DNA from: Acetomicrobium flavidum
GTDB lineage: Bacteria; Synergistota; Synergistia; Synergistales; Acetomicrobiaceae
Direction: 5' to 3'
DNA: 64,000 bases
NCBI RefSeq assembly: GCF_900129645.1
Contig: NZ_FSQZ01000001.1
Location: 1,760,001-1,824,000 of the forward strand
The notes under the pieces were generated by a model that did not search any database, was not told the DNA's origin, and saw only the letters and a list, made by a program, of their open reading frames with translations. The position numbers and the translations under genes are program-made. Position 1 is the stretch's first letter, and each line of letters begins with the position of its first letter. Below are positions 2,334-50,191 of this stretch, in pieces.

Positions 2334-3941
2334 TTACCAGACAGCAATATGTCCGTCAGTTCGAGGTTCTGTGGCACAGCAGTACGAACCATGTTCCGTC
2401 TTCCATATTATCTGCCCTCTACCAAAGGAATGATGTTCCAGCTCTAACTTCACGTCATGCCCCATTCGAGATAAAGCCGCCGCGATGTTTTCGGGTGTTC
2501 CGTATTCCACCGAGACAACGTTGTCCTTTATCCACTGCCAGCGCGGGGCGTCTAATGCCTCCTGCGGGTTCAAATGAAAATCGAGCAAGTTAGACAGGAC
2601 TTGCACGTGAGCCTGGGGTTGCATATAGCCTCCCATAATTCCGAAAGGACCTACGGGTGAACCGTCCCTTGTTAAGAATCCCGGAATGATCGTATGATAA
2701 GGACGTTTGCCGGGCGCCAAGGCGTTCGGGTGTCTCGGATCCATCACGAAACAATGGCCCCTGTTGTGTAGGGCAATTCCTGTCCCGGGTACCACCAGCC
2801 CCGATCCGAAGCCCATGTAGTTGCTCTGGATGTAGGATACCATGTTGCCCTCTTCGTCTGCCGTGGCCAGATAAACCGTGTTGCTTCCAGGAACGACGCC
2901 AGGGTTGTAAACTTTTGCCCTTTCGCCTATCTCAGAACTTCTTTTTCTGCTGTAGTTCTCGGAAAGCATTTCCTCTATGGGCGTCTTAAAGTATTTGGGA
3001 TCTCCAATGAGTGACAAACCGTCGGCAAAAGCCAATTTTATCGCTTCTATTTGAAGATGGTACGATCTTGGATCTTCTTTGTCGGTCATCTCGAAGTTTT
3101 TGAGTATATTAAGGGCAACGAGTGCCACAAGCCCCTGTCCATTGGGGGGGAGCTCCCATACTTCCATTCCTCTATAGTTGATGTGCAACGGCTCTACCCA
3201 TTCAGGCTTAAAAGCTTCAAGGTCGCTTAGCTCAAAAAATCCCCCGGTTTGCCTAGAGAAATTAACTATTTTTTCCGCAAGCGTACCCCTATAGAATGAC
3301 TCCGCCTGAGTCTGTCCAATTTCCCGTAAGGTGTCGGCCATGACCTCACACTTCCATAGCTCTCCAGGGATTGGGGCACGTCCCCTTGGAGCAAATGTAT
3401 CAAACCAATGCTTGAATATTTCGTCTTTGGCGACCCTCTTGTACCACTCAAAGCGCCTTCCCCAATTTTCCGCAAGCTCGGGAGATATGGGATAACCTTC
3501 GGAGGCATATCGAATGGCAGGCTTCAACACTTCGCTCAAGGGCAATTTGCCGAAACGCCTTATTAGGGATGCCCATGCCGCCGGAATGCCCGGCACGGTC
3601 ACAGGCGGCCAACCAACAGGAGGAATCTCTTTGTATCCCTTGTCTTTCAGCGCCTCGATAGAGATGTTTTGAGGTGCAGGCCCGCTGGAATTGAGGCCGT
3701 AAAGTCTTCCGTCGACGCAGACCATGCAAAAGGCATCTCCTCCTATGCCGTTAGAGGCCGGCTCAACGACGGTCAAACATGCAGCAGTGGCCACAGCCGC
3801 ATCGACGGCGTTGCCGCCTTTCTTTAAAATTTCAAGTCCTGCCTCTGCAGCTAAAGGTTGTCCTGTTGCTACAACTCCTTTTTTGGCGAAGACCAAATTT
3901 CTCCTCGAGGGGTAGCGATGGGAGTAGGGGTTAAAAGTCAT
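2334..3941 (-). CDS. ggt: gamma-glutamyltransferase family protein, cytosolic
   Basis: A 535-residue Ntn-hydrolase of the gamma-glutamyltranspeptidase family, which hydrolyses or transfers gamma-glutamyl groups. N-terminal family motifs GGNAVDAAVA (about 42-51) and GIGGDAF (65-71) are present. The expected self-cleavage nucleophile is T355 in GSNTVYLATAD, followed by the GFGSG oxyanion region. No signal peptide is seen, unlike periplasmic E. coli Ggt; it resembles cytosolic YwrD-type members. It lies 46 bases downstream of a minus-strand permease gene, so the two are probably co-transcribed. The substrate could be glutathione-like peptides or gamma-glutamyl oligomers. The latter would link it to the pgs locus at 24-27 kb, but that is inference. 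Confidence 0.85.
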   Translation of the reverse strand: MTFNPYSHRYPSRRNLVFAKKGVVATGQPLAAEAGLEILKKGGNAVDAAVATAACLTVVEPASNGIGGDAFCMVCVDGRLYGLNSSGPAPQNISIEALKDKGYKEIPPVGWPPVTVPGIPAAWASLIRRFGKLPLSEVLKPAIRYASEGYPISPELAENWGRRFEWYKRVAKDEIFKHWFDTFAPRGRAPIPGELWKCEVMADTLREIGQTQAESFYRGTLAEKIVNFSRQTGGFFELSDLEAFKPEWVEPLHINYRGMEVWELPPNGQGLVALVALNILKNFEMTDKEDPRSYHLQIEAIKLAFADGLSLIGDPKYFKTPIEEMLSENYSRKRSSEIGERAKVYNPGVVPGSNTVYLATADEEGNMVSYIQSNYMGFGSGLVVPGTGIALHNRGHCFVMDPRHPNALAPGKRPYHTIIPGFLTRDGSPVGPFGIMGGYMQPQAHVQVLSNLLDFHLNPQEALDAPRWQWIKDNVVSVEYGTPENIAAALSRMGHDVKLELEHHSFGRGQIIWKTEHGSYCCATEPRTDGHIAVW

Positions 3942-17123: not shown

Positions 17124-17649
17124 AAATTTGTCGATGGATAGGATGACATGGCTATCTCGGTGCAATTTTAAAGGTGAGCTCAGAATATGTCTAGCCAATT
17201 GTAGATCAATATCAAGTAGATATAAGATCAACATATTATCTATCTTAATCGCTACATCTAAAGCGTAGAGTAGCATCGATGTTTCATTATATTGCTACAT
17301 AATTGAAGGTGCTTATTTTTTAAATTAGGTAATTATTAATAATTTATCGCGACTGCAGCATCACGTCGTGTAAGTATATAACTTTATGAAGATTGTATAT
17401 CATTGTAAAATTTAGTACATTTAAAATAAGCAATTTTTAGTTTGACTGTAACGAACTTTGATGTATAATCATGTTGAAATAGTTGCTATTATAACTATCG
17501 TAACTTAAAAATTGTTTTTGCAAAGAAACAAAATGAAGCTTCGGTTTTAAGCGATATCAGTCAATGTATCCACCATAATTTCCAGTCCTCTTCCGTATAT
17601 TTCCATTCCTGAATGCTATTACATTAAAATAGAGAAGGGAGTAAGTTTA
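17124..17649. other. 526-base AT-rich intergenic region
   Basis: No gene is recognised on either strand. It is much richer in A and T than its neighbours and has many stops. The only clear signal is the promoter at 17442-17469, which leaves a leader of about 175 bases before the peptidase gene. No riboswitch fold was recognised in the leader, and no terminator was found after the GntR gene. Confidence 0.6.
17442..17469 (+). promoter_or_regulatory. strong promoter for the exported peptidase
   Basis: TTGACT (17442-17447), a 16-base spacer and a consensus TATAAT (17464-17469) preceded by TG. Confidence 0.7.
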
Positions 17650-19266
17650 ATGAACATGAGGAAAGCGTGTTTCCGATTGTGTACCGCATTAGCTGTTGTT
17701 GCCTTATTTGTTGGATCAGTATCAGCGTGCACGGACATAGTAGTTGGGAAGAAGGCTTCCGTCGATGGCTCTGTAATGACCTCTCATACTGCGGATGGAG
17801 CGTTTTACGATGCTAATGTTCGGGTCATAAAGGGTAAAAAGTTTCCTAAGGGGTCAAAGGCGGATGTCTTTTGGAACATAATTGGTGAGGAGAATTATGC
17901 TCCGAAGAAGATAGGGGAAATTCCTCAAGTCGAAGAAACGTATACATATTTTCATGTGGGATATCCTTTTATGAACGAGCACGGGGTTGCCATAGGGGAA
18001 ACGACAATACCTCAGAAAGAAAACTTAAAGACCTTTTATCCGGATGGTAAGGCTATAATGACGATCGAGCAGCTGGAAGTTTTTGCTCTACAGAGAGCAA
18101 AAACGGCTCGCGAGGCCATAAAAGTTATAGGAGAATTGGCCGAAAAGTATGGATTTTTGCCGTCCTGTGGCAGCGAGGGAGAATGCCTTACGATTACCGA
18201 TTCCGACGAGGCTTGGGTGTTTGAGATGTTCAGCGCAGGCTTCATGTGGACTCCCGAAAGCGGGAAACCGGGTGCGATATGGGCAGCCCAGAGAGTGCCT
18301 GATGACTGCGTAGTTGTCGTGCCCAACATAAGTCGGATTCGCAATATAGATCCGAATGACAAGAGTAATTTTATCGTATGCAAACATTATATGGAACCTG
18401 CTATAGAGAATGGTTGGTATAACCCTAAAGACGGAAAACCTTTCGTTTGGCAGGAAGCCTATTCTCCGCTTACTGGCAACGACGATTGGTCCTTGTCTTC
18501 CATATGGGTTCGCGATCGGCTCCATACCCTTTACAGTAAGTTAGACCCATCCAGGGAATGGGATCCCTATGCTGAGACGATGTCCTATCCTTTCGCTATT
18601 AAGCCCGCAAAGAACTTGTCTGTTCAGGATGTCATGGAGATGTTAAAAAGCTACATGGCCGGTACGCCTTTTGATATGACGGAGAATAACGCATGGTACG
18701 TGCGCGAGGGGGATAAAATGGTCAAAAGCCCCTTGGCCACTCCTTTCATGACGTCAGATCAAAGGAAGTTACTCAATATACCTTACTATCGACCGGTTGC
18801 CAAGTACGATTGTGCATACAGCTTTGTATCTCAGGCACGGTCCGGATATCCTACGCCGCTTAAGACAGTACTTTGGTTTGGATATGACAACCCTAATACT
18901 ACCTGTTATGTTCCTATATACTGCGGCGCTTTGGATACAAGGGAAAATTGGCGCACATTTGATAGGGATGCCTTTTCTTTGAATTCCGCTCAATGGGCCT
19001 TTATACTGGCAGATGATCTGGTTAACAAGCGATATCAGGATGCAATTAAGGATCTGCATCAAGTGCGTGATCCCCTTGAAGAAACATTTTTCAAAGAACA
19101 AAAGGATGTAGATGCAAAGGCTTTGGAGCTGTCTAAGAAGAATCTGCAAAGTGCAAAAGATTATTTGACGGAATACACGAAAAGCTGCATGGAAAAGGTA
19201 GAGAAGGCATGGTGGAATTTAAATTGGACTTTGATAACGAAGTATAATAATAATAAAGTCAAATAA
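17650..19266 (+). CDS. exported C69-family dipeptidase (first copy)
   Basis: A 538-residue protein with a Sec signal peptide (about 1-26) and the C69 (PepD-like) Ntn-hydrolase fold. The catalytic cysteine C27 immediately follows the predicted signal cleavage (SVSA then CTDIVVGKKAS), so export would itself expose the N-terminal nucleophile. VDGSVMTSHTADG and ETYTYFHVGYPFMNEHG are family motifs. C69 enzymes release amino acids from dipeptides and small peptides. A tandem-type paralogue lies at 22858 in the same cluster. It has its own strong promoter; the GAGAAGGGAG ribosome site is well placed. The signal region also resembles a lipobox (VSAC), so lipoprotein processing cannot be excluded. Confidence 0.88.
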   Translation: MNMRKACFRLCTALAVVALFVGSVSACTDIVVGKKASVDGSVMTSHTADGAFYDANVRVIKGKKFPKGSKADVFWNIIGEENYAPKKIGEIPQVEETYTYFHVGYPFMNEHGVAIGETTIPQKENLKTFYPDGKAIMTIEQLEVFALQRAKTAREAIKVIGELAEKYGFLPSCGSEGECLTITDSDEAWVFEMFSAGFMWTPESGKPGAIWAAQRVPDDCVVVVPNISRIRNIDPNDKSNFIVCKHYMEPAIENGWYNPKDGKPFVWQEAYSPLTGNDDWSLSSIWVRDRLHTLYSKLDPSREWDPYAETMSYPFAIKPAKNLSVQDVMEMLKSYMAGTPFDMTENNAWYVREGDKMVKSPLATPFMTSDQRKLLNIPYYRPVAKYDCAYSFVSQARSGYPTPLKTVLWFGYDNPNTTCYVPIYCGALDTRENWRTFDRDAFSLNSAQWAFILADDLVNKRYQDAIKDLHQVRDPLEETFFKEQKDVDAKALELSKKNLQSAKDYLTEYTKSCMEKVEKAWWNLNWTLITKYNNNKVK

Positions 19267-19325
19267 AATTTTCTAAAGCCTAATTTTGCTTATATTTTTT
19301 AACATTAGCAAAAATATTAAAACAA

Positions 19326-19353
19326 TTGACCTTAAAACTTTGACTGATATTAT
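19326..19353 (+). promoter_or_regulatory. extended -10 promoter for the DUF6305-like gene
   Basis: TTGACC (19326-19331), a 16-base spacer and TATTAT (19348-19353) with the extended TGA just before it. Confidence 0.65.
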
Positions 19354-19400
19354 ATTAGGCGTCGCTAGCGTTATGAAATTAGTGAAAAGGGGGTCAAAAT

Positions 19401-19991
19401 ATGAAGAAACTAGCAAGATTTCTTGCGCTCGGTAGCTTAGTATGTGTATGTTGTGTGTTGTGTTTGTCGATGGTTGCCATAGGCAATGAGATACCGCCTA
19501 TCAAGCCGCCAATCATCATCACGACTTGTGGCCAGAGTCCTGGTGCCGTTATGGTAAAGATGTCCATAATGCAGGCTCAGATCGCGCCTGTGGAGAACAA
19601 CAATACGATCACGGCTTCCGAATTGAAAGGCAAGGGTTACAAGACGCTGATCGTTACGACAGGTACCAGCGGTAAAGGCATGGGCGCTGCTGGAACCAAC
19701 GTAAACAAGGAGATCGCTCGTTGCAAGGAAGTTATTGAAGAGGCCAAAAAAGAAGGAATACTGGTGATAACTGCACATGTTGAAGGAATGGCACGACGCA
19801 CCGACAGTGCCGATCAGCAGTCAATCGATGAAATCATGCCGCTTGGAGATGTAATGTTGGTTGTGGCAGACAGCAACTCTGACGGATATTTCACTAAATT
19901 GGCCAGAAAATATAACAAACCGTTGATAGAAGCTAAGGATGCCCTGGAGATTGGGGCAAAGTTGAAAGAATACGTTGAGGTGAAAAAGTAG
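19401..19991 (+). CDS. secreted DUF6305-like protein
   Basis: A 196-residue protein with an N-terminal signal peptide (hydrophobic core about 9-28, cysteine-rich CVCCVLC) followed by a small alpha/beta domain. PIIITTCGQSPGAVMVKM, LIVTTGTSGKGMGAAG and MLVVADSNSDGYF suggest a Rossmann-like fold with a Gly-rich loop. It matches my memory of the DUF6305 family, for which no function is established. It is transcribed from its own promoter and followed at once by a strong terminator, so it may be made in excess over the downstream permease. That pattern resembles solute-binding proteins of TRAP or ABC systems, but the fold does not look like a classical binding protein. Confidence 0.65.
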   Translation: MKKLARFLALGSLVCVCCVLCLSMVAIGNEIPPIKPPIIITTCGQSPGAVMVKMSIMQAQIAPVENNNTITASELKGKGYKTLIVTTGTSGKGMGAAGTNVNKEIARCKEVIEEAKKEGILVITAHVEGMARRTDSADQQSIDEIMPLGDVMLVVADSNSDGYFTKLARKYNKPLIEAKDALEIGAKLKEYVEVKK

Positions 19992-19993
19992 TG

Positions 19994-20034
19994 AAAAGTA
20001 CGTCCTGCCCCCTGGGCGGGACGTACTTTTATTG
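19994..20034 (+). terminator. strong intrinsic terminator inside the cluster
   Basis: A 17-bp stem (19994-20010 with 20014-20030, one G-T pair) starts two bases after the stop and ends in TTTTATT. It would make the DUF6305-like gene largely monocistronic, with the permease genes downstream read by leak-through or another promoter. Confidence 0.88.
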
Positions 20035-20059
20035 GCACTAAAATCTTTAAGAAGGGAAA

Positions 20060-21397
20060 ATGGTTCATATGTTTGCACATGCAGAGATCGTTCTGGTAGT
20101 TATTGTTGTGGCCTTTGCCATATTTAAGTTGTTAAAACTTACCACTGAACTGTCCATGTTCCTTTCAGCTATAGTGGCCGCTATAGCGCATTCGATTCTT
20201 TTGCGGTTGGCATCTGATCCTAGGGGTATTGTGCCGCTCATTCCGGTACGTCATATCGTTGAGGGAGCTTTCACTTATTTTGATGTATGTCTGATATTTC
20301 TTACGGCGACGTTTTTTATGGCGCTCTTTAGGGATAGCGGTGGCGTTGCGTTCATAGTGAGAAAAATAGTATCAGCTTTTCACACCAGACGAAATTTGTG
20401 TTTGTTGTTCTTAACATTGGTTTTATTACTTCCTGGAGCTATTACAGGCTCTGGCGCGACAACAGTTCTTACTGTCGGTGCGCTGGTGGGTTCTGTATTG
20501 ACCTCGATGGGGATTGATGAGACCAAAAGGGCTGCAATTATATTTATGGGAGCTGCGATGAGTGCAGCTGCACCACCAATTAACCTTTGGGCAATGATGG
20601 CTGCAGCGGGTGCTAATATGCCTTACGTAGGTTTTGGCAAGCCGTTGCTGGTGCTGTCGTTATTGGGTGCCCTGTTTTCTACCTATTGGTTGGCGGGTAA
20701 GGCGAACAAAAAATTGGAGTTGCAAGAAGCTTTAAGCATGCTTCCCGAGGTACCCGAGAGACAAAACTGGTTTAGGGTTGGATTCCCCTTTGTTTTGTTG
20801 TTGGCATTAATACTGGCCGGTAGAATATGGTTTTTCAATATGCCCGTATTGGGGCTGCCGTTATTGTTTATGCTTGCCTCTCTTTCTGTTGTCATTCTAA
20901 GCCCAAAACCGTTGCCCATATGGCAGATTGCATGCTCTACCGTACATTCGCTATTGCCGTTGGTTGGCATTATGGTAGTGGTAGGCGTGTTGATCCAGAT
21001 CATGGCCTTAAGCGGCGCGAGGGGATTGTTGTCATTGTTGATAGTTACATTGCCCTTGGGAGTGCTGTATGCAACGCTTTTCTTTATCTTGCCCATCTCA
21101 GAGGGTGCCCTTCAGTATGCTGTGGCTCCCTTGATTGGAGTTCCGCTCATCATGCTTTTTAACATGAAGGGAATGGATCCGGTAATTGCCCTGTCAGCTA
21201 TGGCTGTAATATGGCCAATTGGAGACTGTTTGCCACCAACTGCAATTGTGGGTCGGGCAACTGTAATTGAATTGGAATACAAGGGTAAGTATTACGGAGA
21301 ATTCCTTAAAACTTGTCTGATACCCATGGCATTTGTAGCGTTAATTGGAACGCTATTTCTTATTTTTAGTACAAATCTGTCTTTCTTGGAGGGATAG
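20060..21397 (+). CDS. TRAP-type (DctM-like) large permease
   Basis: A 445-residue protein with about 11-12 membrane helices. PGAITGSGATTVLTVGALVG (about 128-147) and AMSAAAPPINLWAMMAAAGANMP (about 172-194) resemble the two re-entrant hairpins of DctM-type large subunits of TRAP dicarboxylate transporters. A matching motif sits in the C-terminal half (WPIGDCLPPTAIVGRA). No classical DctP binding protein or DctQ subunit is adjacent; instead a 54-residue membrane protein follows immediately. Substrates of the class are carboxylates and acidic amino acids. The location between gamma-glutamyl-related enzymes suggests glutamate or gamma-glutamyl peptides. Start ATG 20060 follows AAGAAGGG; ATG 20069 is possible. 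Confidence 0.7.
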   Translation: MVHMFAHAEIVLVVIVVAFAIFKLLKLTTELSMFLSAIVAAIAHSILLRLASDPRGIVPLIPVRHIVEGAFTYFDVCLIFLTATFFMALFRDSGGVAFIVRKIVSAFHTRRNLCLLFLTLVLLLPGAITGSGATTVLTVGALVGSVLTSMGIDETKRAAIIFMGAAMSAAAPPINLWAMMAAAGANMPYVGFGKPLLVLSLLGALFSTYWLAGKANKKLELQEALSMLPEVPERQNWFRVGFPFVLLLALILAGRIWFFNMPVLGLPLLFMLASLSVVILSPKPLPIWQIACSTVHSLLPLVGIMVVVGVLIQIMALSGARGLLSLLIVTLPLGVLYATLFFILPISEGALQYAVAPLIGVPLIMLFNMKGMDPVIALSAMAVIWPIGDCLPPTAIVGRATVIELEYKGKYYGEFLKTCLIPMAFVALIGTLFLIFSTNLSFLEG

Positions 21398-21402
21398 CTT
21401 AG

Positions 21403-21567
21403 ATGATACTGGCAAATACTATCATAATGTGGCTATATTACGGTATAGTCCTGTTTTTTACAGGAGCTATTCTGCGTAATTTTGTCAAATCGACAAATGC
21501 TCAAGATATTGTCCTTTATGGCATTGTCTTGCTTCCCTTTGTCCTTAGACTAGCAAGACTTAAGTAG
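21403..21567 (+). CDS. 54-residue small membrane protein following the TRAP-like permease
   Basis: ATG 21403 lies 5 bases after the permease stop, and a GGAGGG site at 21388-21393 serves as ribosome site. Two hydrophobic helices (about 4-24 and 37-50) are joined by RNFVKSTNAQD. It may stand in for the DctQ small subunit of TRAP systems, although DctQ normally has four helices. The next gene starts 18 bases later, so it is embedded in the operon. Confidence 0.65.
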   Translation: MILANTIIMWLYYGIVLFFTGAILRNFVKSTNAQDIVLYGIVLLPFVLRLARLK

Positions 21568-21585
21568 CAATTAGGAGGCTTACTT

Positions 21586-22749
21586 ATGCCAAATAAATAT
21601 GTAAAGATCTTTACAATAATATTTCTTATCGTCTTTGCGTCAATCGGTGGACATGATTTTTATGTTCACAGGCACTTTAAAGAAGCAATGGTGCCTTCCT
21701 CATCCTTGACAGAAGTTAGACATCTGTCTGACTATGAGCCTTCCCTCAAGGGCACTGTTAATGACAGTAACATATACGTCTTCGATAGTGGCATTCCCGG
21801 TGGCACGGTTTTGCTTTTGGGGGGGACACATCCTGAAGAACCGGCTACTAATTTAACCGCGCTTCTTGTGGCAGAGAATGTAAAAATAGAAAAGGGACGC
21901 CTGTTTGTCATAATTAGAGCAAACAGGAGCGCCTCTACGGGAACAAGAATGGGAGAGGCATACCCTGATTTCTACCATGTAAAGACTCCATGGGGAACAA
22001 AAATTTTTCGTATGGGAGATAGGGTCTCTAATCCTTTGGATTCTTGGCCCGACCCTGAAGTATACATTCATTACCCGACAAGGCAGATGCTGGCGTATAT
22101 GGATTTTAGAAACCTAAATAGATGTTGGCCAGGCAGAAATAACAGTGCCATTACTGAGCGCACTACATGGGCCATGATGCAACTCATTAGAGAAGAAAAT
22201 ATGGATATGGTTGTAGACCTACATGAGGCTGAGCTTGAGTATCCTGTCATCAATACAATAGTAGCGCATGAAAAAGGACAGGCAGTAGCTGCGATGACTT
22301 CAATGACGCTGACTGCTCAACTGTTTGATGTTCCTCTTAACATGGAATTTTCGCCGAAAGCGTTGAGAGGTTTATCTCACAGAGAAATTGGAGATCATTC
22401 CAATGCTATGTCACTGCTTGTAGAATCAGCCGAGCCCATGCTTGATCGCATAAGGGGCATTACCGACGAGTACCTCCTCATGACGGGTAAAGATGAGTTT
22501 GTTGTAAAAGCGGGAGAGCATGGATTGCTTTACTCGCCAATAGATGAAAAGGGTTGGCCCATAGATGTTAGGGTAGGGCGTCATTCATCGACCTTTCTGA
22601 CAATGTTGCAGTTTTTTACTATGATGTACCCAGATAAGCCAATAGTCGTATCAGGGGTCCCTGGCTATAAAGAGATTATTGCAAATTCTTTAGGGACTTA
22701 TCTTCATAACCCACAAGAAGCAAAGGATGGCCATGTCTTTTACGATTGA
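21586..22749 (+). CDS. membrane-anchored M14-like zinc hydrolase (succinylglutamate desuccinylase/aspartoacylase family)
   Basis: A 387-residue protein. One N-terminal membrane segment (about 6-22) anchors an extracytoplasmic domain. Zinc ligands H82 and E85 (GGTHPEE) and H213 (VVDLHEAE) are present. NLNRCWPG (177-184) is the substrate-binding Asn-Arg motif of AstE/AspA enzymes, which belong to the M14 carboxypeptidase clan. Family members cleave N-acyl amino acids; related M14-like enzymes of phages hydrolyse poly-gamma-glutamate. Being exported and placed between the permease and pgsBCW genes, it may trim gamma-linked glutamate chains or peptides outside the membrane. That substrate is inference. 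GGAGG precedes the ATG. Confidence 0.8.
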   Translation: MPNKYVKIFTIIFLIVFASIGGHDFYVHRHFKEAMVPSSSLTEVRHLSDYEPSLKGTVNDSNIYVFDSGIPGGTVLLLGGTHPEEPATNLTALLVAENVKIEKGRLFVIIRANRSASTGTRMGEAYPDFYHVKTPWGTKIFRMGDRVSNPLDSWPDPEVYIHYPTRQMLAYMDFRNLNRCWPGRNNSAITERTTWAMMQLIREENMDMVVDLHEAELEYPVINTIVAHEKGQAVAAMTSMTLTAQLFDVPLNMEFSPKALRGLSHREIGDHSNAMSLLVESAEPMLDRIRGITDEYLLMTGKDEFVVKAGEHGLLYSPIDEKGWPIDVRVGRHSSTFLTMLQFFTMMYPDKPIVVSGVPGYKEIIANSLGTYLHNPQEAKDGHVFYD

Positions 22750-22857
22750 GCGCTTTTGATTTAGATGGGAAAGGAGGGGGTAACTTATTTAAGACTAATA
22801 TTGTAGCATAGCATTAGGTAAGCATATTTTGGTTACAAGGAGAAGGGAGAGAAAAAG

Positions 22858-24501
22858 ATGAGTCGAAGGTTGGCAAAAATTTTGTCGTTATCCGTGCTGG
22901 CTGTTTTTTTGCTCAGTCCTGTAGCTGATGCTTGTACCACGATCATTGTAGGGAAAGAAGCCTCCACGGACGGATCCGTAATGGTGACGCACACATGCGA
23001 CGGTTGGTACGATAACAGGGTTAGAGTGGTTCCGGGAGGCATTCATAAAGATGGAGAAATGACGCCGGTATACAAAGAACTTTGTCATGGCACCAGGCCA
23101 GATATGCCCTTGGTGAAGGTGGGTGAAATTCCCCAAGCGAAAGAAACGTATACGTATTTCCATGTGGGATATCCGTTTATGAATGAGCATCAAGTGATAA
23201 TGGGAGAGGCGACATGGACCGGACGCGACGAAAACTATTGCCCGAACGGTTGGATGATGATAGAGCAACTTCAAGTGTTTGCACTGCAGAGGGCATCTAC
23301 AGCTCGCGATGCAATAAAAATCATGGGGCAACTTGCAGAGAAGTATGGATATGGCGATGGTGGCGAAACTCTCCTTGTGATTGATAAAAACGAAGGTTGG
23401 ATATTCGATATATGCGGTCCGGGTCCTCTTTGGACACAAGATAGCAGGAAACCAGGGGCCATTTGGGTTGCTCAACGCGTTCCCGATGATTGCGTAACAG
23501 TTGTCTCCAATCGCACAAGGATTGGAACGATAGATTGGAACGATAAAGATAACTTCATGTATTCTTCCAACATAAAGACGTTTGCCCAGGAGATGGGGTG
23601 GTGGAAACCAGGAGAGCAGTTTGTCTTCCATAAGATTTACAATCCCGAACCGTATGGAAGCCCCTACTACCAGCAACGCAGGGAATGGAGAGTCTTAAGC
23701 ATTTTGGCTCCATCTTTGAATTTGAAGGAAAATGCTGCAGATATGTATCCCCTTATGGTAAAACCCGATAAGAAAGTATCCGCAAGAGATCTCATGAGCA
23801 TAAACAGGGATTACTACGAAGGAACTCGTTTTGATCTTACGAAGGGACTTGCAGCAGGACCATTTGGCACTCCAAATCGTTATTCAACGCCCAAGGAAGT
23901 TCGTCCTGAAGGCAGGAAGGATGTAGATTGGACTCGAGCAATTTCCATATTCCGTTGCTCCTACAGCTTTGTAGCCCAGGCAAGAAGTTGGTTGCCCGAT
24001 CCTGTAGGAGGTGTTTTATGGTTTGGAGAAGATGCGCCTCATTCCACGGTGTATATGCCGATTTATGCAGGCACTGCGAGCCTTCCTCAGAGCATTACGG
24101 AATGCAAGCGAGCGGAGTTCGACAGGAACTCCGCATACTGGGCATTTAACTTTGTCTCTAATTGGGCCGACTTAAAGTTTAACTATATTATGAAGGACAT
24201 CAAGGCGGCACAAAAAGCTTATGAGGATGAGTTCTTCATGTATCAACCAGTCGTTGAAGATAAGGCAGTTGCGCTTTACAAAGAAGATCCATCGAAAGCT
24301 AAATCTTATTTGACCGATTATGTAAACAAGAGTATGAATAAGGTCGTAGATGGATGGTGGAACTTAGCTCAGCAGCTCGTTGGGAAATACTCTGACGGAT
24401 TCATCACCTACCCTGACGGCAAGCAAGAATCCGTTGGTTATCCGACGTGGTGGCTTGAGACTGTCGATTTTGGAAAGGAAGAGATGGAACCTAAGCAGTA
24501 A
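22858..24501 (+). CDS. exported C69-family dipeptidase (second copy)
   Basis: A 547-residue paralogue of the protein at 17650. Signal peptide about 1-25; the nucleophile C26 directly follows ADA. VGKEASTDGSVMVTHTCDGW and KETYTYFHVGYPFMNEH are shared with the first copy, but the C-terminal parts differ enough to suggest different specificities. It is expected to be exported and to work as an N-terminal-cysteine hydrolase on small peptides. A GGAGAAGGGAG ribosome site lies just upstream. Together with the first copy and the zinc hydrolase it gives three exported peptide or amide hydrolases in one cluster. Confidence 0.88.
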   Translation: MSRRLAKILSLSVLAVFLLSPVADACTTIIVGKEASTDGSVMVTHTCDGWYDNRVRVVPGGIHKDGEMTPVYKELCHGTRPDMPLVKVGEIPQAKETYTYFHVGYPFMNEHQVIMGEATWTGRDENYCPNGWMMIEQLQVFALQRASTARDAIKIMGQLAEKYGYGDGGETLLVIDKNEGWIFDICGPGPLWTQDSRKPGAIWVAQRVPDDCVTVVSNRTRIGTIDWNDKDNFMYSSNIKTFAQEMGWWKPGEQFVFHKIYNPEPYGSPYYQQRREWRVLSILAPSLNLKENAADMYPLMVKPDKKVSARDLMSINRDYYEGTRFDLTKGLAAGPFGTPNRYSTPKEVRPEGRKDVDWTRAISIFRCSYSFVAQARSWLPDPVGGVLWFGEDAPHSTVYMPIYAGTASLPQSITECKRAEFDRNSAYWAFNFVSNWADLKFNYIMKDIKAAQKAYEDEFFMYQPVVEDKAVALYKEDPSKAKSYLTDYVNKSMNKVVDGWWNLAQQLVGKYSDGFITYPDGKQESVGYPTWWLETVDFGKEEMEPKQ

Positions 24502-24532
24502 ATTAACTATGGCATAGGCATTATGCCTTACG

Positions 24533-24572
24533 GCAGTTCGACGGGGATGATAATAACTTCCCGTCGGACTGC
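24533..24572 (+). terminator. hairpin, possible weak terminator or attenuator
   Basis: A 13-bp stem (24533-24545 with 24560-24572, one G-T pair) sits between the second C69 gene and pgsB, but is followed by TTCTGGTTTTG rather than a clean T run. It may reduce transcription into pgsBCW. Confidence 0.45.
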
Positions 24573-24608
24573 TTCTGGTTTTGAGGTTTTGATCGAAAGG
24601 GGATTATT

Positions 24609-25604
24609 TTGAAGGCGAAATACAGGGTGCTTGTCACCGGCACACGGGGTAAAAGTAGCCTGGTTAGGCTAATGACAGCAGGTTTTAGGTCCGCAGGCAT
24701 GGCATGTTTTTCTCGCATAACTGGAGTCATACCTACCGAGCTGTCGCCTCATGGTGTCAGGAGGATTATAAGGTCGAGGGAAGGGCACATAAAAGAACTT
24801 CAGTGGTGGCTTTCAACAGTGCCTCCGGTTGCTGATGCAATAGTTGCAGAAAATAGTGCTGTTTCGGAAGAATTTCAACCTCTGGCTGCAAGATGGCTGG
24901 AACCGAACCTGGTGATTTGGACGAATTTGAGAGAAGATCATTTTGAAGCTTGGGGTCCGACTAAAGCTGGAGCAAGAATGGCTTTGTTTTCGGGTATACC
25001 AAGGAAAGTTGCGGTTATCCTAGGGCCGAACATGGATGACGATAAAAGACTGCTTGAACTTTTGAAAAAAAATCAAAATGCAATTTATTTTACGCAAGGT
25101 AATTTTTCTAATTTTGAGGATGCCAATGTTGCGCTCGCAATACAGGCGTTTAAAATACTAGGTTTAAATGTGACCAAAGAGAGGATATATGCTTATTTAG
25201 ACGACGATCCCGGCAGGTTCAAGGTGTTAAAGGCGGGCAACGGCGTCCTGGCGTTTGCTTTTGCTGCCAACGATCTGGAAAGCACCGTTGATCTTTTTGC
25301 GTCACTTGGTTGGGACGAAAAGGAAACGTCCATTCTTTTTAATAATAGGCGCGACAGGCCGGGAAGGCTTAGGGCTTTTGAGCCCTGGCTTCGCAGCGAA
25401 CGATGGGATGGTGTTTTTATATGCGGAGCTCACCCCCTGCGGTTGATAAGGGGCGCTAGTTGGATTTATTTTAAAAACAAGGAAGAGATTGTCTCGTTTG
25501 TGGGAAAAAGAGGCTTGGTATTCGGATGTGGCAATATAGCCGGTCTACCTATATTAGAACTATTGTCATGTGAAGAGGTGAAAGGCAACTGCAGCAGGAT
25601 TTAA
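24609..25604 (+). CDS. pgsB: PgsB/CapB-like poly-gamma-glutamate synthase ligase subunit
   Basis: A 331-residue Mur-ligase-like ATP-dependent amide ligase. The P-loop is GTRGKSS (11-17), and NLREDHFEAWGPTKAGAR (about 111-128) is the CapB/PgsB signature after the Mg2+ site. It forms gamma-glutamyl amide bonds at the inner membrane face. It is shorter than the Bacillus enzyme and lacks its N-terminal membrane helix. TTG 24609 is the start, with AAAGGGGA at 24595-24602. Its stop overlaps the pgsC start by one base. No PgsA/CapA is found in the window, so export or length control must work differently or be encoded elsewhere. Confidence 0.88.
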   Translation: MKAKYRVLVTGTRGKSSLVRLMTAGFRSAGMACFSRITGVIPTELSPHGVRRIIRSREGHIKELQWWLSTVPPVADAIVAENSAVSEEFQPLAARWLEPNLVIWTNLREDHFEAWGPTKAGARMALFSGIPRKVAVILGPNMDDDKRLLELLKKNQNAIYFTQGNFSNFEDANVALAIQAFKILGLNVTKERIYAYLDDDPGRFKVLKAGNGVLAFAFAANDLESTVDLFASLGWDEKETSILFNNRRDRPGRLRAFEPWLRSERWDGVFICGAHPLRLIRGASWIYFKNKEEIVSFVGKRGLVFGCGNIAGLPILELLSCEEVKGNCSRI

Positions 25605-26002
25605 TGGTTATCGCCATAAGCATAATTATTGGCATGATTTTTTATTACAGAACGGGCATAGCAACCGGAGGCATCATCTCGCCTGGTTTATTGGCCATCA
25701 AATACTTTTCATGGCAATTATTCGCGATAGCAATAGCATATTCAATGATCATATTGTTGGTATTAGAAGTTCTCGTCAGAGTCTTCGGTGTATATGGAAG
25801 ACAAAGGACATGTTTTGCTCTGCTCTTGGCAGCTTTTTTGGGTATAATTTCAAGTTCAAGCTTGCCGTGGATTGGATGGATCGTGCCCGGGCTCATGGCG
25901 GCAGACATGCAAAGGCAAGGTATTCTTCCTACGACTTTGGGGCTGTTGGTGGTTTCTGGACTATCGCTTTTGACGGGGCAATTGATCTATGGGATATTTT
26001 AG
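25604..26002 (+). CDS. pgsC: PgsC/CapC-like membrane subunit
   Basis: A 132-residue protein with about four or five membrane helices. Family motifs are YRTGIATGGIISPGLLA near the N-terminus and WIGWIVPGLMAADMQRQG near the C-terminus. With PgsB it forms the membrane ligase that builds poly-gamma-glutamate. The TAATG overlap with pgsB and the 14-base overlap with pgsW show tight coupling of the three genes. Confidence 0.88.
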   Translation: MVIAISIIIGMIFYYRTGIATGGIISPGLLAIKYFSWQLFAIAIAYSMIILLVLEVLVRVFGVYGRQRTCFALLLAAFLGIISSSSLPWIGWIVPGLMAADMQRQGILPTTLGLLVVSGLSLLTGQLIYGIF

Positions 26003-27065
26003 TGCTTTCTTTCATGGTTTATTTAACATATTCTTTGGGAGCAACACGCCCCTGTCGAAGAAATGTAATCTTAAACTAATTATCCTCGCAACAGTCGTAG
26101 GTCTTTTAATATGGGCATGGCCATCAGGAAACCTTACCATCGAAGAGGAAAGGATTTGGGATAGGGTCAGGGATGCCCAATCCTACTTGTATAATCTTAA
26201 AGTTCAAACTGAAGGACATGTTCCACCTGAAGAATTAGACCCTATGAAGTGCGGGTTGATAGGCGTGGAATGGAGTCCGATTTCTACGACAATAGGATCG
26301 CTTCAATCCAAGCAGATATCCTGCAATCCAATTTGGGCGGTCATATTCCTGCGATGGTTTGATGAACTGGGCCTGAAAAAAGGCGATCGTGTGGCGATTT
26401 TGAGTTCTGGCTCCTTCCCTGGTTTTCTGATTTCTTCCATCATTGCGGCCGAAGCAAAGGGATTGGATGTATTTCTTCAGATATCGCTGGGTGCTTCTAC
26501 CTACGGGGCTAACGATCCGGATTTTCCTATATCCCGCATCCTCGCGGAGTTGCGCAAGGCTGGGTACATTTCCTCGAAGGCTGCCTTTTATACTTTAGGC
26601 GGAGACTACGAAATAGGCGGAGGTATACCTAAAGAGGGCATAGATTTAATGTTAAAATCTGCTCAAGCGGAAGGAGTTCCTGTATTGCGAGCCAAATCGC
26701 TGCAGGAGATTACTGAATCCAAGATGAGATATTTAGATAAGTTTAACCCCTCATTGGTCATACACATTGGGGGTGCCCATTCCAACATTGGAACTGACGA
26801 GAGCGTGCTTTCCTTGCCCCCCGGCATTTTAAGCTCGAGGCATGAAAAAAATGCCGGAAACGGGATAATATCTTTGATGCTTAAGAGGAAAACGCCCGTA
26901 ATTCATATTCTTAATGTGAAAAGGCTGTGCAGGATTACCGGTGTCCCCGAAAGGGCAATATTTGTGAAAGCTGGTCCTACTCCTTTTAGGTTGCCGAGAG
27001 CTTTATTGGGTCTCATGTGTTTTGCGGTATTTTTATATAAATATGAGCGTTGGACAATTGAATAG
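25989..27065 (+). CDS. pgsW: PgsW-like poly-gamma-glutamate system protein
   Basis: A 358-residue protein. One N-terminal membrane helix (about 27-47) and probably one at the C-terminus (about 333-352) flank an extracytoplasmic alpha/beta domain. VAILSSGSFPGFLISSIIAAEAKGLDVFLQ, then GASTYGANDPDFP and HIGGAHSNIGTDES are distinctive. It matches my memory of the poly-gamma-glutamate system protein (PgsW), a family that accompanies pgsB and pgsC in genomes without the Bacillus-type pgsA. Its biochemical role is not established. It may replace PgsA in polymer export or attachment. It overlaps pgsC and is last in the cluster. Confidence 0.75.
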   Translation: MGYFSAFFHGLFNIFFGSNTPLSKKCNLKLIILATVVGLLIWAWPSGNLTIEEERIWDRVRDAQSYLYNLKVQTEGHVPPEELDPMKCGLIGVEWSPISTTIGSLQSKQISCNPIWAVIFLRWFDELGLKKGDRVAILSSGSFPGFLISSIIAAEAKGLDVFLQISLGASTYGANDPDFPISRILAELRKAGYISSKAAFYTLGGDYEIGGGIPKEGIDLMLKSAQAEGVPVLRAKSLQEITESKMRYLDKFNPSLVIHIGGAHSNIGTDESVLSLPPGILSSRHEKNAGNGIISLMLKRKTPVIHILNVKRLCRITGVPERAIFVKAGPTPFRLPRALLGLMCFAVFLYKYERWTIE

Positions 27066-27098
27066 CCTGTATCTCATGGACAAGCGAGGTGGTTTTTG

Positions 27099-28433
27099 AT
27101 GGATTTTACCAATGACGAAATGATCGAAAAGGCTAAAAAACCGGCCGAGGAAGCGCTAAAGCTGCATCGATTTTACCATGGCAAGATGCAAACGGTGCCC
27201 AAGTGCTGCATCAGGGACATATCTGACTTTGCCATCTGGTACACGCCAGGTGTGGCTGAACCCTGCAAGGAGATAAACAAAAACCCTGAGCTGGCTTACG
27301 AGTTTACTAATAAGGCAAACACCATAGCGGTCGTAACTGACGGAACGAGGGTCTTGGGCTTGGGCGACATAGGGCCCGAAGCGGGGCTCCCCGTCATGGA
27401 AGGCAAGTGTATGCTCTTTAAGTACTTGGGTGGTGTGGACGCCGTGGCAATTTGCCTTGATACCAAAGACCCCGATAAGTTCATAGAGACGGTCAGAATG
27501 CTTACTCCTGCCTTCGGCGGGATCAACCTGGAAGACATAGCCCAACCGAAGTGCTTTTATATTCTCGACGAGCTTCGCAAGGACTGCAAGGTCCCGGTAT
27601 GGCACGACGACCAGCAGGGAACGGCTGCCGTTAACCTGGCAGGCCTTTACAGCGGCCTTAAGATAACCGGCAAGAAGATCGAAGATATAAAGGTCGGCTT
27701 TTTTGGCTGCGGGGCCGCTAACGTCGCTACGGTAAGGATCCTAATAAGCGCAGGGGTCAATCCCAAAAACATACTTATTGCAGACAGCAAGGGAGTGCTG
27801 CACTCGGAAAGAAGCGACCTTGACGACGTAAAATACGACATAAAGCGGCACCTTGCCCAAATTACCAATCCCGATAACGTCAGCGGAGGACCGGAGAAAA
27901 TCTTTGAGGATGCTAATGTGGTGTTTTGTTACACCAAACCAGGCCCCGACGTGGTAAAAAAGGAATGGGTCGCCAGGATGGCCAAGGACGCAATGCTTTT
28001 TGCCTGCGCCAACCCCATTCCCGAGATATGGCCCTGGGAGGCCAAAAAAGCCGGTGCCAGGATAGTTGCCACAGGAAGGTCCGATTTTCCGAACCAGATA
28101 AATAATTCCTTGATCTTCCCTGCGGTTTTTAGAGGTACCCTTGACGTCAGGGCATCGGTCATAACTGATGAAATGTGCATAGCTGCGGCAAAGACGTTGT
28201 CAGAGTGCGCCGAAAAGATAGGCTTGAACGAGGATTACCTGATTCCTACCATGGATCAGACATGGGTATACCCTGAGGTCGCTGCGTCGGTGGGTGTCAA
28301 GGCAATCGAACAGGGCGTGGCAAAACTCACCGCTTCCAGAGAGGATCTGGTCAAGATGGCGGAAGAAAGGATAAGGCTTGCCCAGGAGATGACGAAACTT
28401 CTCATGAAAGAGGGGTTGATAAAATCTCTGTAA
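27099..28433 (+). CDS. malic enzyme (NAD(P)-dependent, bacterial short form)
   Basis: A 444-residue enzyme that decarboxylates malate to pyruvate. The N-terminal malic domain holds YTPGVAEPC (about 50-58) and DGTRVLGLGDIGPEAGLPVMEGK. A central HDDQQGTAAV leads into a Rossmann domain with FFGCGAANVATVR (about 202-214). It lacks the C-terminal phosphotransacetylase domain of MaeB. ATG 27099 is chosen over TTG 27096; a CGAGGTGG site precedes it. NAD versus NADP preference is undetermined. Alone between the pgs genes and the argG T-box, it supplies pyruvate to the fermentation pathway. Confidence 0.92.
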   Translation: MDFTNDEMIEKAKKPAEEALKLHRFYHGKMQTVPKCCIRDISDFAIWYTPGVAEPCKEINKNPELAYEFTNKANTIAVVTDGTRVLGLGDIGPEAGLPVMEGKCMLFKYLGGVDAVAICLDTKDPDKFIETVRMLTPAFGGINLEDIAQPKCFYILDELRKDCKVPVWHDDQQGTAAVNLAGLYSGLKITGKKIEDIKVGFFGCGAANVATVRILISAGVNPKNILIADSKGVLHSERSDLDDVKYDIKRHLAQITNPDNVSGGPEKIFEDANVVFCYTKPGPDVVKKEWVARMAKDAMLFACANPIPEIWPWEAKKAGARIVATGRSDFPNQINNSLIFPAVFRGTLDVRASVITDEMCIAAAKTLSECAEKIGLNEDYLIPTMDQTWVYPEVAASVGVKAIEQGVAKLTASREDLVKMAEERIRLAQEMTKLLMKEGLIKSL

Positions 28434-47562: not shown

Positions 47563-48034
47563 TATCGAAGTCACCATCACCGTAAATGGGACGAAACATC
47601 GCCTTACAGTCGGGCCGAAGGAAAGGCTGCTTGACACCTTGCGGGAGCGTCTTCACCTTACGGGCACGAAGGAAGGTTGCGGCGTCGGGGAATGCGGAGC
47701 CTGTACGGTAATACTTGACGGTGAGGCGGTGCATTCCTGCATGGTCTTGACGGCTCAAGCCGACGGAAGCGAGGTCCTTACCGTCGAAGGCTTGGAGGTC
47801 GACGGACGCCTTCATCCGCTGCAGGAAGCGTTTATAAAGCATCACGCCGTACAGTGCGGATTTTGCACGCCCGGCATGCTCATGTCCGCCAAGGCCTTGC
47901 TCGACAAAAACCCAAACCCTACCAGGGAGGAGATAAAGACCGCCATAGAGGGAAACTTGTGCCGCTGTACTGGGTATGAGCAGATCATAGAGGCGATAGA
48001 AAGCGTGGCAAAGGAGCCTCATATAAATCGCTAA
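47555..48034 (+). CDS. xdhC: xanthine dehydrogenase [2Fe-2S] subunit (set 1)
   Basis: A 159-residue two-cluster subunit. The plant-type cluster is CGVGECGACTVILDGEAVHSC; the helical cluster is QCGFCTPGM with CRCTGY. ATG 47555 is better spaced from GGAGG (47541-47545) than ATG 47549. It completes the first hydroxylase set (large, FAD, FeS), the gene order of E. coli XdhABC. A perfect hairpin follows the stop after 11 bases. Confidence 0.93.
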   Translation: MSNIEVTITVNGTKHRLTVGPKERLLDTLRERLHLTGTKEGCGVGECGACTVILDGEAVHSCMVLTAQADGSEVLTVEGLEVDGRLHPLQEAFIKHHAVQCGFCTPGMLMSAKALLDKNPNPTREEIKTAIEGNLCRCTGYEQIIEAIESVAKEPHINR

Positions 48035-48045
48035 CCTTTGATCGG

Positions 48046-48089
48046 GCACGAACCTTATCCCCATTTTCGATCGAAGTTAAGGTTCGTGC
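48046..48089 (+). other. perfect hairpin after the first xanthine dehydrogenase set
   Basis: A 12-bp perfect stem (48046-48057 with 48078-48089) and a 20-base loop, again without a T run. It sits between the FeS subunit and the cytosine permease-like gene and mirrors the hairpin at 44343. Confidence 0.6.
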
Positions 48090-48189
48090 AGGTGGAGTTG
48101 GCTAAAAGGATGTTTATTTTTACCGGATTTTGCTGTTTTCTATAAAACTTTGAATGCAGTTTTGGGCAAACCTAAAAGGAGGCTGTATT

Positions 48190-49458
48190 ATGCCTAAGAA
48201 CAGAGCAAACGATTACGAGCTGACAGCTGTTCCGTTTGATCAGCGAAAGACTTTTCTTGGCGTTACGATGGTATGGACTGGATTCGTGTTTGTAATTGCC
48301 AGCATGGTTGCAGGGGGCGGTTTGGCGGCTGGACTCACGTTTAAGGAGATAGTTTGGGTCACCATACTTGGCAATTGTTTTTTAACAGTGGTTGCTTCCC
48401 TGATCTCTGTAATATCCTGCAAGACCGGATTGACTTTTGCCCTCATAACGAGATACAGCTTCGGTATAAAAGGTTCTAGAATAGCGTCATTTTTTGTACC
48501 TATAGTTAACATAGGCTGGTACACAATCCAGTCAGCGTTATACGGGCATTTAATAGCACAACTATTACATCTGGGACCTATAGGGGAAGGTATTGCCATG
48601 ATTGCCAGCGCTATCCTCATGGGTGTATTTGCCTTGATAGGGATAGATGCCCTCACTGTGTTGGGGTATGTGGCCATTCCCAACATAATATTTCTTTCCA
48701 TTGCAACCACGATGAAATCTGTACAGCTTTCCGGCGGTTGGAGCAGTATATCTCAATATATACCAGCTTCGCCCACTACGTTAGGCTACGCGTTTTCCAT
48801 AGTTGTAGGTACGTGGATATTTTCAGCTTCAACTTGTATTGCCGATATCATGAGGTATGCCAAAAACACGAGGGAAGCCGTTTTGAGCGCTGGATGCGGA
48901 TTGGTCGGGGGAAACAGCTTATTAATCATATGCGGTGCGATTACCAGCATAGCGATGGGTGACAGCGACCTTACCAAGGTGTTGCTTGATATGGGGCTTG
49001 TAATACCTAGCATAATATTGATGAGTACCAATATATGGACCACCAATGCAGCGAACGTCTATTCTACCAGTTTAAACCTTGCCAATGCACTAAATAAGGG
49101 CAAAAAAGGAATTTTGGCGGTGGTATTGATCGTCTCGGCTTTGCTTACCTTGACCAAACCTTACAATATAGGCATATTTTTCGTGTTCTTAAATACGCTA
49201 GGAAACATAGTTCCGCCTCTTCCTGGGATCATTTTCGCTGATTATTATGTTTTAAAACACAGATATTACGATACGTCAAAGCTAGGTTACGATGACTGGA
49301 ATTATATTGCCTGGCTTTCTTGGGTCGTATCTGTATTATTAGTATTTGTCGTTAAGGTTGGATTTCCACCTGTAAACGGCATATTATTCGGATTTTTTAC
49401 GTACTTGTTATTGTCTGTTTTGTTAAAAAGAAAGCATACTTATATACAAAGTAGGTGA
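48190..49458 (+). CDS. NCS1-family cytosine/purine permease (CodB-like)
   Basis: A 422-residue permease with about 12 membrane helices. LTAVPFDQRKTFLGVTMVWTGF at the N-terminus and GWYTIQSALYGHLIAQ resemble CodB, the cytosine:H+ or Na+ symporter of the NCS1 family. Allantoin and purine permeases belong to the same family, so the substrate is uncertain. ATG 48190 has an AAAGGAGG site with ideal spacing; the longer frame from 48154 does not. It is followed directly by a 60-residue membrane protein and two deaminases. Confidence 0.88.
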   Translation: MPKNRANDYELTAVPFDQRKTFLGVTMVWTGFVFVIASMVAGGGLAAGLTFKEIVWVTILGNCFLTVVASLISVISCKTGLTFALITRYSFGIKGSRIASFFVPIVNIGWYTIQSALYGHLIAQLLHLGPIGEGIAMIASAILMGVFALIGIDALTVLGYVAIPNIIFLSIATTMKSVQLSGGWSSISQYIPASPTTLGYAFSIVVGTWIFSASTCIADIMRYAKNTREAVLSAGCGLVGGNSLLIICGAITSIAMGDSDLTKVLLDMGLVIPSIILMSTNIWTTNAANVYSTSLNLANALNKGKKGILAVVLIVSALLTLTKPYNIGIFFVFLNTLGNIVPPLPGIIFADYYVLKHRYYDTSKLGYDDWNYIAWLSWVVSVLLVFVVKVGFPPVNGILFGFFTYLLLSVLLKRKHTYIQSR

Positions 49459-49463
49459 TTTCT

Positions 49464-49646
49464 TTGACTGATGCAAAGAAGATAAGGCAAGGCAGATTAT
49501 TTGCGGTTATAGGTATTTTTATAATGGCTGTTGGATCTTTTATGGCATGTTTAAGCAATACAGGTAGCGGAATAAATACGGGCAATATATTGCTAATTTT
49601 AAGCTTGGCCCTGACGACATACGGTTTTACGTATTGGCGACCTTAA
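49464..49646 (+). CDS. 60-residue small membrane protein following the cytosine permease
   Basis: TTG 49464 lies 5 bases after the permease stop and is served by AGTAGGTGA at 49450-49458. A basic N-terminus (TDAKKIRQGR) leads into two hydrophobic helices (about 11-30 and 40-55) with a Gly/Ser/Asn-rich loop between. No family is known to me. Tight placement and the same two-helix plan as the microproteins at 8650 and 21403 suggest a permease-associated role. Confidence 0.6.
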   Translation: MTDAKKIRQGRLFAVIGIFIMAVGSFMACLSNTGSGINTGNILLILSLALTTYGFTYWRP

Positions 49647-49696
49647 AGCTTTAGTGATTGTTAATTTCTAAATTGAATCTTGGGTGGTGGAAATTA

Positions 49697-50191
49697 GTGA
49701 GAGGCCAATTTGATGAACTTGATCATATTAAATTCTTACGTTTGGCAATTGAAATCTCCAGTAAGGCTAGGAAATCAGGTAACACACCTTTCGGAGCTGT
49801 GCTTGTAGGTCCTACGGGTAACGTGTTGCTTGAACAGGGAAACGTAGAAATTACTGAGAAAAGATGTACGGGGCATGCTGAATTGGTCTTGGTCGAAAGA
49901 GCGTCGCGAATTTACGACAAGGAATTCCTATGGCAGTGTACGCTTTATACCTCAGTGGAGCCATGTGCTATGTGCACGGGAGCGATCTATTGGTCTAATG
50001 TCGGAACCATAGTCTACGCTTTATCCGAAAGGCAACTGTTGGCCCTGACGAGGGATCATCCGCAAAATCCGACGCTTGACCTCCCGTGTAGGGAAGTGAT
50101 AGCCCGCGGTCAGAAGGACATTTGCGTGATAGGACCCTTTGATGAGCTTGCAAATGAGGTAATTGAGGTCCATAAGGGATATTGGGAATGA
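49697..50191 (+). CDS. CDA-fold nucleobase deaminase (guanine deaminase-like)
   Basis: A 164-residue zinc deaminase. The zinc/proton-shuttle motif is GHAEL (H60, E62) and the cysteine pair is SVEPCAMCTGAIYW (C90, C93). TPFGAVLVGPTGNVL fits the guanine deaminase (GuaD) subgroup of the cytidine deaminase superfamily, which turns guanine into xanthine. GTG 49697 is chosen because of the GGGTGGTGG site; the longer frame from 49658 lacks family resemblance. Context supports a role in feeding guanine to the xanthine dehydrogenases. Confidence 0.82.
   Translation: MRGQFDELDHIKFLRLAIEISSKARKSGNTPFGAVLVGPTGNVLLEQGNVEITEKRCTGHAELVLVERASRIYDKEFLWQCTLYTSVEPCAMCTGAIYWSNVGTIVYALSERQLLALTRDHPQNPTLDLPCREVIARGQKDICVIGPFDELANEVIEVHKGYWE

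Follow-up and report, generated by a model that had tools for sequence, protein, structure and literature searches.

The locus at 17650-27065 is best read as belonging to a widespread envelope system, as yet undescribed, that consists of two parts, a PgsB-PgsC-PgsW set and a module of transport and hydrolase genes. It lies in a window of 64,000 nucleotides of Acetomicrobium flavidum DNA and comprises nine genes, every one on the + strand, in the order C69, DUF6305, permease, 54-aa microprotein, AspA/M14-like zinc hydrolase, C69, pgsB, pgsC and pgsW. Gene calls and Pfam/NCBIfam searches bear out the gene set, order and strand given in a preliminary description of this DNA. Its term "fused" was too strong, since the parts are separate genes and probably form two transcription units. 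The association between PgsW and DUF6305 and the composition of the module are well supported.

Genes of the locus

As for the exported hydrolases, the two C69-family N-terminal-nucleophile enzymes, C69a (17650-19266, +) and C69b (22858-24501, +), match PF03577 (9e-59 and 1.2e-69, respectively). In each of the eight C69 sequences compared, the signal peptide is immediately followed by the catalytic Cys, which would be N-terminal after processing, as expected from members of this family. C69 enzymes are known dipeptidases that act on alpha-peptides. Upstream of C69a is a promoter-like site (TTGACT-16-TATAAT; 17442-17469, +) that agrees with the consensus at 11 of 12 positions, a consensus match only. 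The membrane-anchored zinc hydrolase (21586-22749, +) is AspA/AstE/DoeB-like (M14-like). It scores 24.4 bits against PF24827, just short of the cut-off of 25, and its profile, when compared with solved structures, finds DoeB and aspartoacylase-like enzymes. It carries the HxxE...H zinc site and the Asn-Arg motif of the AspA/AstE family, with H82, E85, H213, N178-R179 and E280 invariant in 14 aligned sequences. A carboxypeptidase proper was considered for this protein and rejected in favor of the AstE/AspA-like assignment, on the basis of the PF24827 profile and the DoeB/aspartoacylase-like relatives. The catalytic motifs of the hydrolases of the locus are intact.

In many other loci, the slot of the second C69 is occupied by a gene for a gamma-glutamyltransferase (GGT) of ~570 aa. 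TIGR00066 scores above its cut-off in all six of these GGTs that were tested, and the nucleophile Thr is retained. The CapD-type arrangement, with a GGT beside pgs/cap genes, is thus present in the GGT-type relatives, while the window has a C69 in that place. The window also holds a distant GGT-like gene (2343-3920, - strand; TIGR00066 335 bits, under the cut-off), ~15 kb upstream of the locus.

The permease (20060-21397, +) has no Pfam family above cut-off, and a profile search of solved structures by sequence gave nothing useful. Its AlphaFold2 model (pLDDT 70.5) is nearest, according to Foldseek, to MleN, INDY and TRAP membrane subunits, and its halves carry two Pro-Pro motifs. The predicted MleN/DASS/TRAP-M-like fold would place it in the ion-transporter superfamily, whose members are mostly carriers of carboxylates or inorganic anions, and this fits, without proving, glutamate-like pieces as its cargo. 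The likeness to TRAP transporters, which combine a DctM-family permease with DctQ and DctP, is at the level of superfamily fold only: DctP and DctQ are absent among the neighbors, and neither the permease nor DUF6305 has such a Pfam match. The permease can therefore still be called "TRAP-like," as it was initially, when the superfamily is meant, but it is not TRAP proper.

Two side observations concern permeases in the window. The best fold match of the permease, MleN, is a malate/lactate antiporter, and a malic enzyme gene (27096-28433) begins 30 bp past pgsW, where none is seen in the related loci. Further away, another permease gene (48154-49458), cytosine/purine carrier-like by eye, lies under a dip in G+C (0.418 at 48001-50000) and is adjoined by xanthine-dehydrogenase-like and deaminase-like genes.

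The microprotein (21403-21567, +; 54 aa) is conserved in relatives. Hydrophobic counterparts of 47-61 aa are found 3' of the permease in 18 of 18 Synergistales loci, where their similar C-termini have a P followed by L/M-R and end in K. Of 78 further evaluable loci in a wider set, 76 have such a counterpart. The P and R are invariant in all 125 profile hits. Since pN/pS is uninformative, synonymous sites being probably near saturation, the reality of this gene rests on its position and its conserved residues. As judged from these sequences, such position-specific conservation across phyla is not due to chance, and it suggests that the microprotein might be a small subunit of the permease. The secreted DUF6305 protein (19401-19991, +), assigned by PF19823 (6e-49) and by alignment, is proposed to be a periplasmic helper of the permease. 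Its profile produced chance-level matches only against solved structures, and no publication on DUF6305 was found in the open-licence literature. Profile comparison gave no support to PgsW and DUF6305 sharing an origin.

The pgsB, pgsC and pgsW genes overlap or abut. PgsB (24609-25604, +) is a PgsB-type, Mur-ligase-like, ATP-dependent amide ligase that matches Mur_ligase_M (PF08245), keeps the P-loop GTRGKS and is without the N-terminal stretch of the TIGR04012 model, against which it scores 99 bits, below the equivalog cut-off of 222.7. PgsC (25604-26002, +) is a PgsC/CapC membrane protein, with 70.6 bits for PF14102 (cut-off 27) and 57.5 bits for TIGR04011, under its cut-off of 96.45. PgsW (25989-27065, +), encoded beside pgsB and pgsC as is typical of its family, reaches 323 bits for TIGR04332 against a cut-off of 100. 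It was modeled with a pLDDT of 88.3 and has one predicted membrane helix on either side of a soluble domain, and the flanking charges indicate that this domain is probably outside the membrane. A fold search with PgsW returned low-TM matches and no good match among solved structures, and its profile found nothing useful there by sequence. Among open-licence papers, no study of PgsW/TIGR04332 was found, save for a Francisella annotation. The absence of PgsA/CapA, initially reported for this locus, holds genome-wide in a PF09587 search, and the set is in this respect not a PgsBCA system.

A 16-bp hairpin, terminator- or attenuator-like (24532-24573, +; z-score -4.8), lies at the junction between the module and pgsB. 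Because it precedes pgsB, the module and pgsBCW are probably two neighboring transcription units, as predicted from sequence, rather than one established operon. Hairpins of at least 9 bp are found 5' of pgsB in 18 of the 23 junctions where pgsB follows the module, and 7 of these 18 have a T-rich tail. Like this window, most loci from other phyla in which pgsB comes after the module have a strong hairpin right before pgsB. Examples are L034, L039, L120, L124, L127, L130 and L132, some of which have a T-rich tail.

Conservation across phyla and co-occurrence in genomes

Scanning genome contigs with the permease alignment yielded 289 relatives, the best 80 of which were read, many on contigs of metagenome-assembled genomes (MAGs). 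According to their titles, these best 80 loci belong to Synergistota, to Bacillota (Halanaerobium, Flavonifractor, Pseudoflavonifractor and other Clostridia), to Aminicenantes/Acidobacteriota and to single MAGs called Atribacteria and Thermotogota. Neighborhood maps reveal DUF6305-permease-microprotein-AspA as a near-invariant block. The permease, microprotein and AspA genes, usually with DUF6305, recur together in Synergistota, Bacillota and Aminicenantes (Acidobacteriota), with C69 before or after the block or GGT after it, most modules having one of the two. The pgsBCW genes often adjoin the block, on the same strand or facing it. Oscillospiraceae-type loci have the order C69, DUF6305, permease, microprotein, AspA, pgsB, pgsC, pgsW, which is that of the window minus the second C69, and in Aminicenantes pgsW-pgsC-pgsB are on the opposite strand, facing the module. 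Among the best 80 of 289, PgsW is near the module in 31 of the 49 loci with enough sequence, and in many cases pgsBCW does not adjoin the module. A neighborhood confined to this genome had been named at the outset as what would speak against the proposal. The neighborhood is instead conserved across phyla and in opposite orientations, and co-occurrence in genomes is near-complete even where the parts are unlinked.

Some loci have further features. The order in Halanaerobium is pgsW, a single protein that combines DUF6305 with an AstE/AspA domain (L121:4997-6205, directly 3' of pgsW; a similar protein is in L122), a histidine kinase and a response regulator. A sensor histidine kinase gene follows pgsW there (L121:6196-8176, with the response regulator) and in several Synergistota loci (L062:13649-15046). 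No report of Halanaerobium making polyglutamate was found in open-licence papers. In Aminicenantes, a membrane protein of ~200 aa without a Pfam match is encoded before the permease (L144:8349-8960, L162:7377-7958), in some cases with an M28 peptidase gene between it and DUF6305. Three congeners (L036-L038) have kept pgsBCW, with only C69 remnants 5' of pgsB (L036:11804-12139, L037:12076-12255 and L038:6689-6940). In two of the three genomes, a complete or partial GGT-type module lies at another site (L089, L099). It looks like these congeners have lost the C69-type module and use the GGT type.

In genome counts, PgsW was used as a stand-in for PgsBCW. TIGR04332 is found in 34 of 61 Synergistales genomes: 31 have both PgsW and DUF6305, 3 have PgsW alone, 2 have DUF6305 alone and 25 have neither. 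In the class to which an Aminicenantes carrier belongs, the corresponding counts for 70 genomes are 30, 0, 1 and 39. The Fisher values (1.8e-11 for Synergistales and 5.6e-19 for the Aminicenantes class) ignore shared ancestry and overstate the evidence. Within two families, f5 and f10, which each hold carriers and non-carriers, PgsW and DUF6305 agree genome by genome, and they do so in f5 even though the two genes are >50 kb apart. PgsW is present in 17 of the 18 genomes behind the permease loci, including nearly all of those where none is seen beside the permease. For the order of the Pseudoflavonifractor genome, an Oscillospirales-type sample, PgsW is in 1 of 79 genomes and in none of the 78 others. 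PGA_cap (the PgsA family) does not track PgsW in Synergistales, occurring in 12 of 34 genomes with PgsW and in 12 of 27 without it.

A tree of 121 permeases shows a single change of partner type (GGT or C69), against 22 changes in adjacency to pgsW; many Aminicenantes loci with neither hydrolase in range were left out of the partner-type count. The tree is a quick build in which long branches separate the main clades, which makes the exact joins unsure; the split itself is strongly supported. The single change of partner type means that permease subtype and hydrolase type travel together, as would be expected if the permease imports the product released by the hydrolase.

Proposed function and alternative readings

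We tentatively favor, with a confidence that falls somewhat short of even, a system that makes, trims and re-imports a gamma-glutamyl-type product, with PgsW replacing PgsA. Its first part, PgsB-PgsC-PgsW (an ATP-dependent ligase, a membrane partner and the probably outward-facing PgsW), would make and export a gamma-glutamyl-linked polymer or oligomer. The second would consist of DUF6305, the permease, the microprotein, the AspA-type zinc hydrolase and an N-terminal-nucleophile hydrolase, either C69 or GGT. Outside the membrane, the exported hydrolases would cleave this material or peptides derived from it. The acidic pieces would be brought back in by the permease, of which the microprotein would be a small subunit and DUF6305 a periplasmic helper. 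The gamma-glutamyl product, the direction of transport, the substrate, the role of DUF6305 and the physiological purpose are all things that we infer; a nitrogen or osmolyte store, as earlier proposed, may be that purpose. This is the most economical reading because GGT occupies the slot in one clade and PgsW is nearly always in the same genomes. The gamma-glutamyl part of the initial interpretation thus gains support, since GGT fills the slot of the second C69 in many loci, while the loop and its product keep the conditional standing that they had.

Several points count against this reading. PgsB and PgsC are under their equivalog cut-offs, C69 enzymes are known for alpha-peptides and many modules are apart from pgsBCW. 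PgsBCW of one and the same type is found with C69 in some loci and with GGT in others, and action of a GGT on the polymer can thus be no general rule. F. tularensis, a carrier of capB and capC homologues, is cited as yielding no poly-D-glutamate in broth (PMC2629122).

Alternatively, the module may serve nutrient scavenging: it would digest material from outside, whether gamma-glutamyl peptides, acidic peptides or N-acyl amino acids, and import the products, with PgsBCW downstream, using or conjugating the imported glutamate. The peptidases are exported, C69 and GGT act on peptides generally, many modules stand apart from pgsBCW and carriers include amino-acid fermenters. There are also known cases of GGT and transport serving scavenging (PMC2629122). 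We nevertheless consider this unlikely, although it is the main rival, as scavenging alone leaves unexplained both the near-constant retention of PgsW, unlinked and in two phyla, and the repeated re-association of the two parts. Another alternative is that the product of PgsB-PgsC-PgsW, which the module processes and imports, is not polyglutamate but a short oligomer, a modified acceptor or a product of another amino acid. The low scores of PgsB and PgsC, the absence of PgsA, the failure of PGA_cap to follow PgsW and the lack of a proven polymer for PgsW-type loci, including the Francisella broth result (PMC2629122), are in keeping with such a product. We regard it as quite improbable, given that the P-loop of PgsB and the CapC family membership are kept and that a GGT at the place of the hydrolase suggests gamma-glutamyl bonds. 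The two parts might, finally, be independent gene sets that share lineages by chance or hitch-hiking, which is compatible with their probably separate transcription units and the 22 changes of adjacency on the permease tree. This we judge very improbable in view of co-occurrence without linkage, genome-by-genome agreement within f5 and f10, replication in a second phylum and adjacency in opposite orientations.

Relation to known systems

Like Bacillus PgsBCA(E)/CapBCADE, the locus has a PgsB-type ligase and PgsC. There, CapD, a GGT-type enzyme that trims and anchors polyglutamate, or another cleavage enzyme is found beside the synthetase genes (PMC3815933). Here, in contrast, PgsW stands for PgsA, the ligase is without the N-terminal stretch of the model, C69 is in the GGT slot, and there are an extra permease, microprotein, DUF6305 and AspA-like hydrolase. 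Francisella capBCA resembles the locus, as judged by annotation, in having a ligase, CapC and a PgsW-family protein, its CapA being annotated as "poly-gamma-glutamate system protein" (PMC5362203). The permease shares its predicted fold and two Pro-Pro motifs with the TRAP/DASS (ion-transporter superfamily) proteins; unlike in these systems, a microprotein of 47-61 aa takes the place of DctP/DctQ, and DUF6305 is no known binding protein. The zinc hydrolase has the HxxE...H and Asn-Arg motifs and the late Glu of AspA/DoeB, and it is related to the zinc carboxypeptidase-like fold of PghL, a known hydrolase of poly-gamma-glutamate (PMC6506827). It differs from AspA/AstE/DoeB and from PghP/PghL in being exported, membrane-anchored and a separate subfamily.

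A more far-reaching proposition, possible yet doubtful, is that PgsB-PgsC-PgsW, rather than being a capsule synthetase, would provide the ligase half of a cycle, either of peptide salvage or of gamma-glutamyl material, that extends across phyla. DUF6305, the permease and the microprotein would then form a new tripartite secondary transporter that has a matching periplasmic hydrolase of its own and depends on the product of the ligase.

Together, these findings join DUF6305, an unnamed microprotein, a permease without a Pfam family and PgsW into one testable multi-phylum system. For PgsW-type pgs/cap loci, none of which has a defined product, the first substrates to try are indicated by the partner enzymes, most of all by the GGT that takes the same slot.
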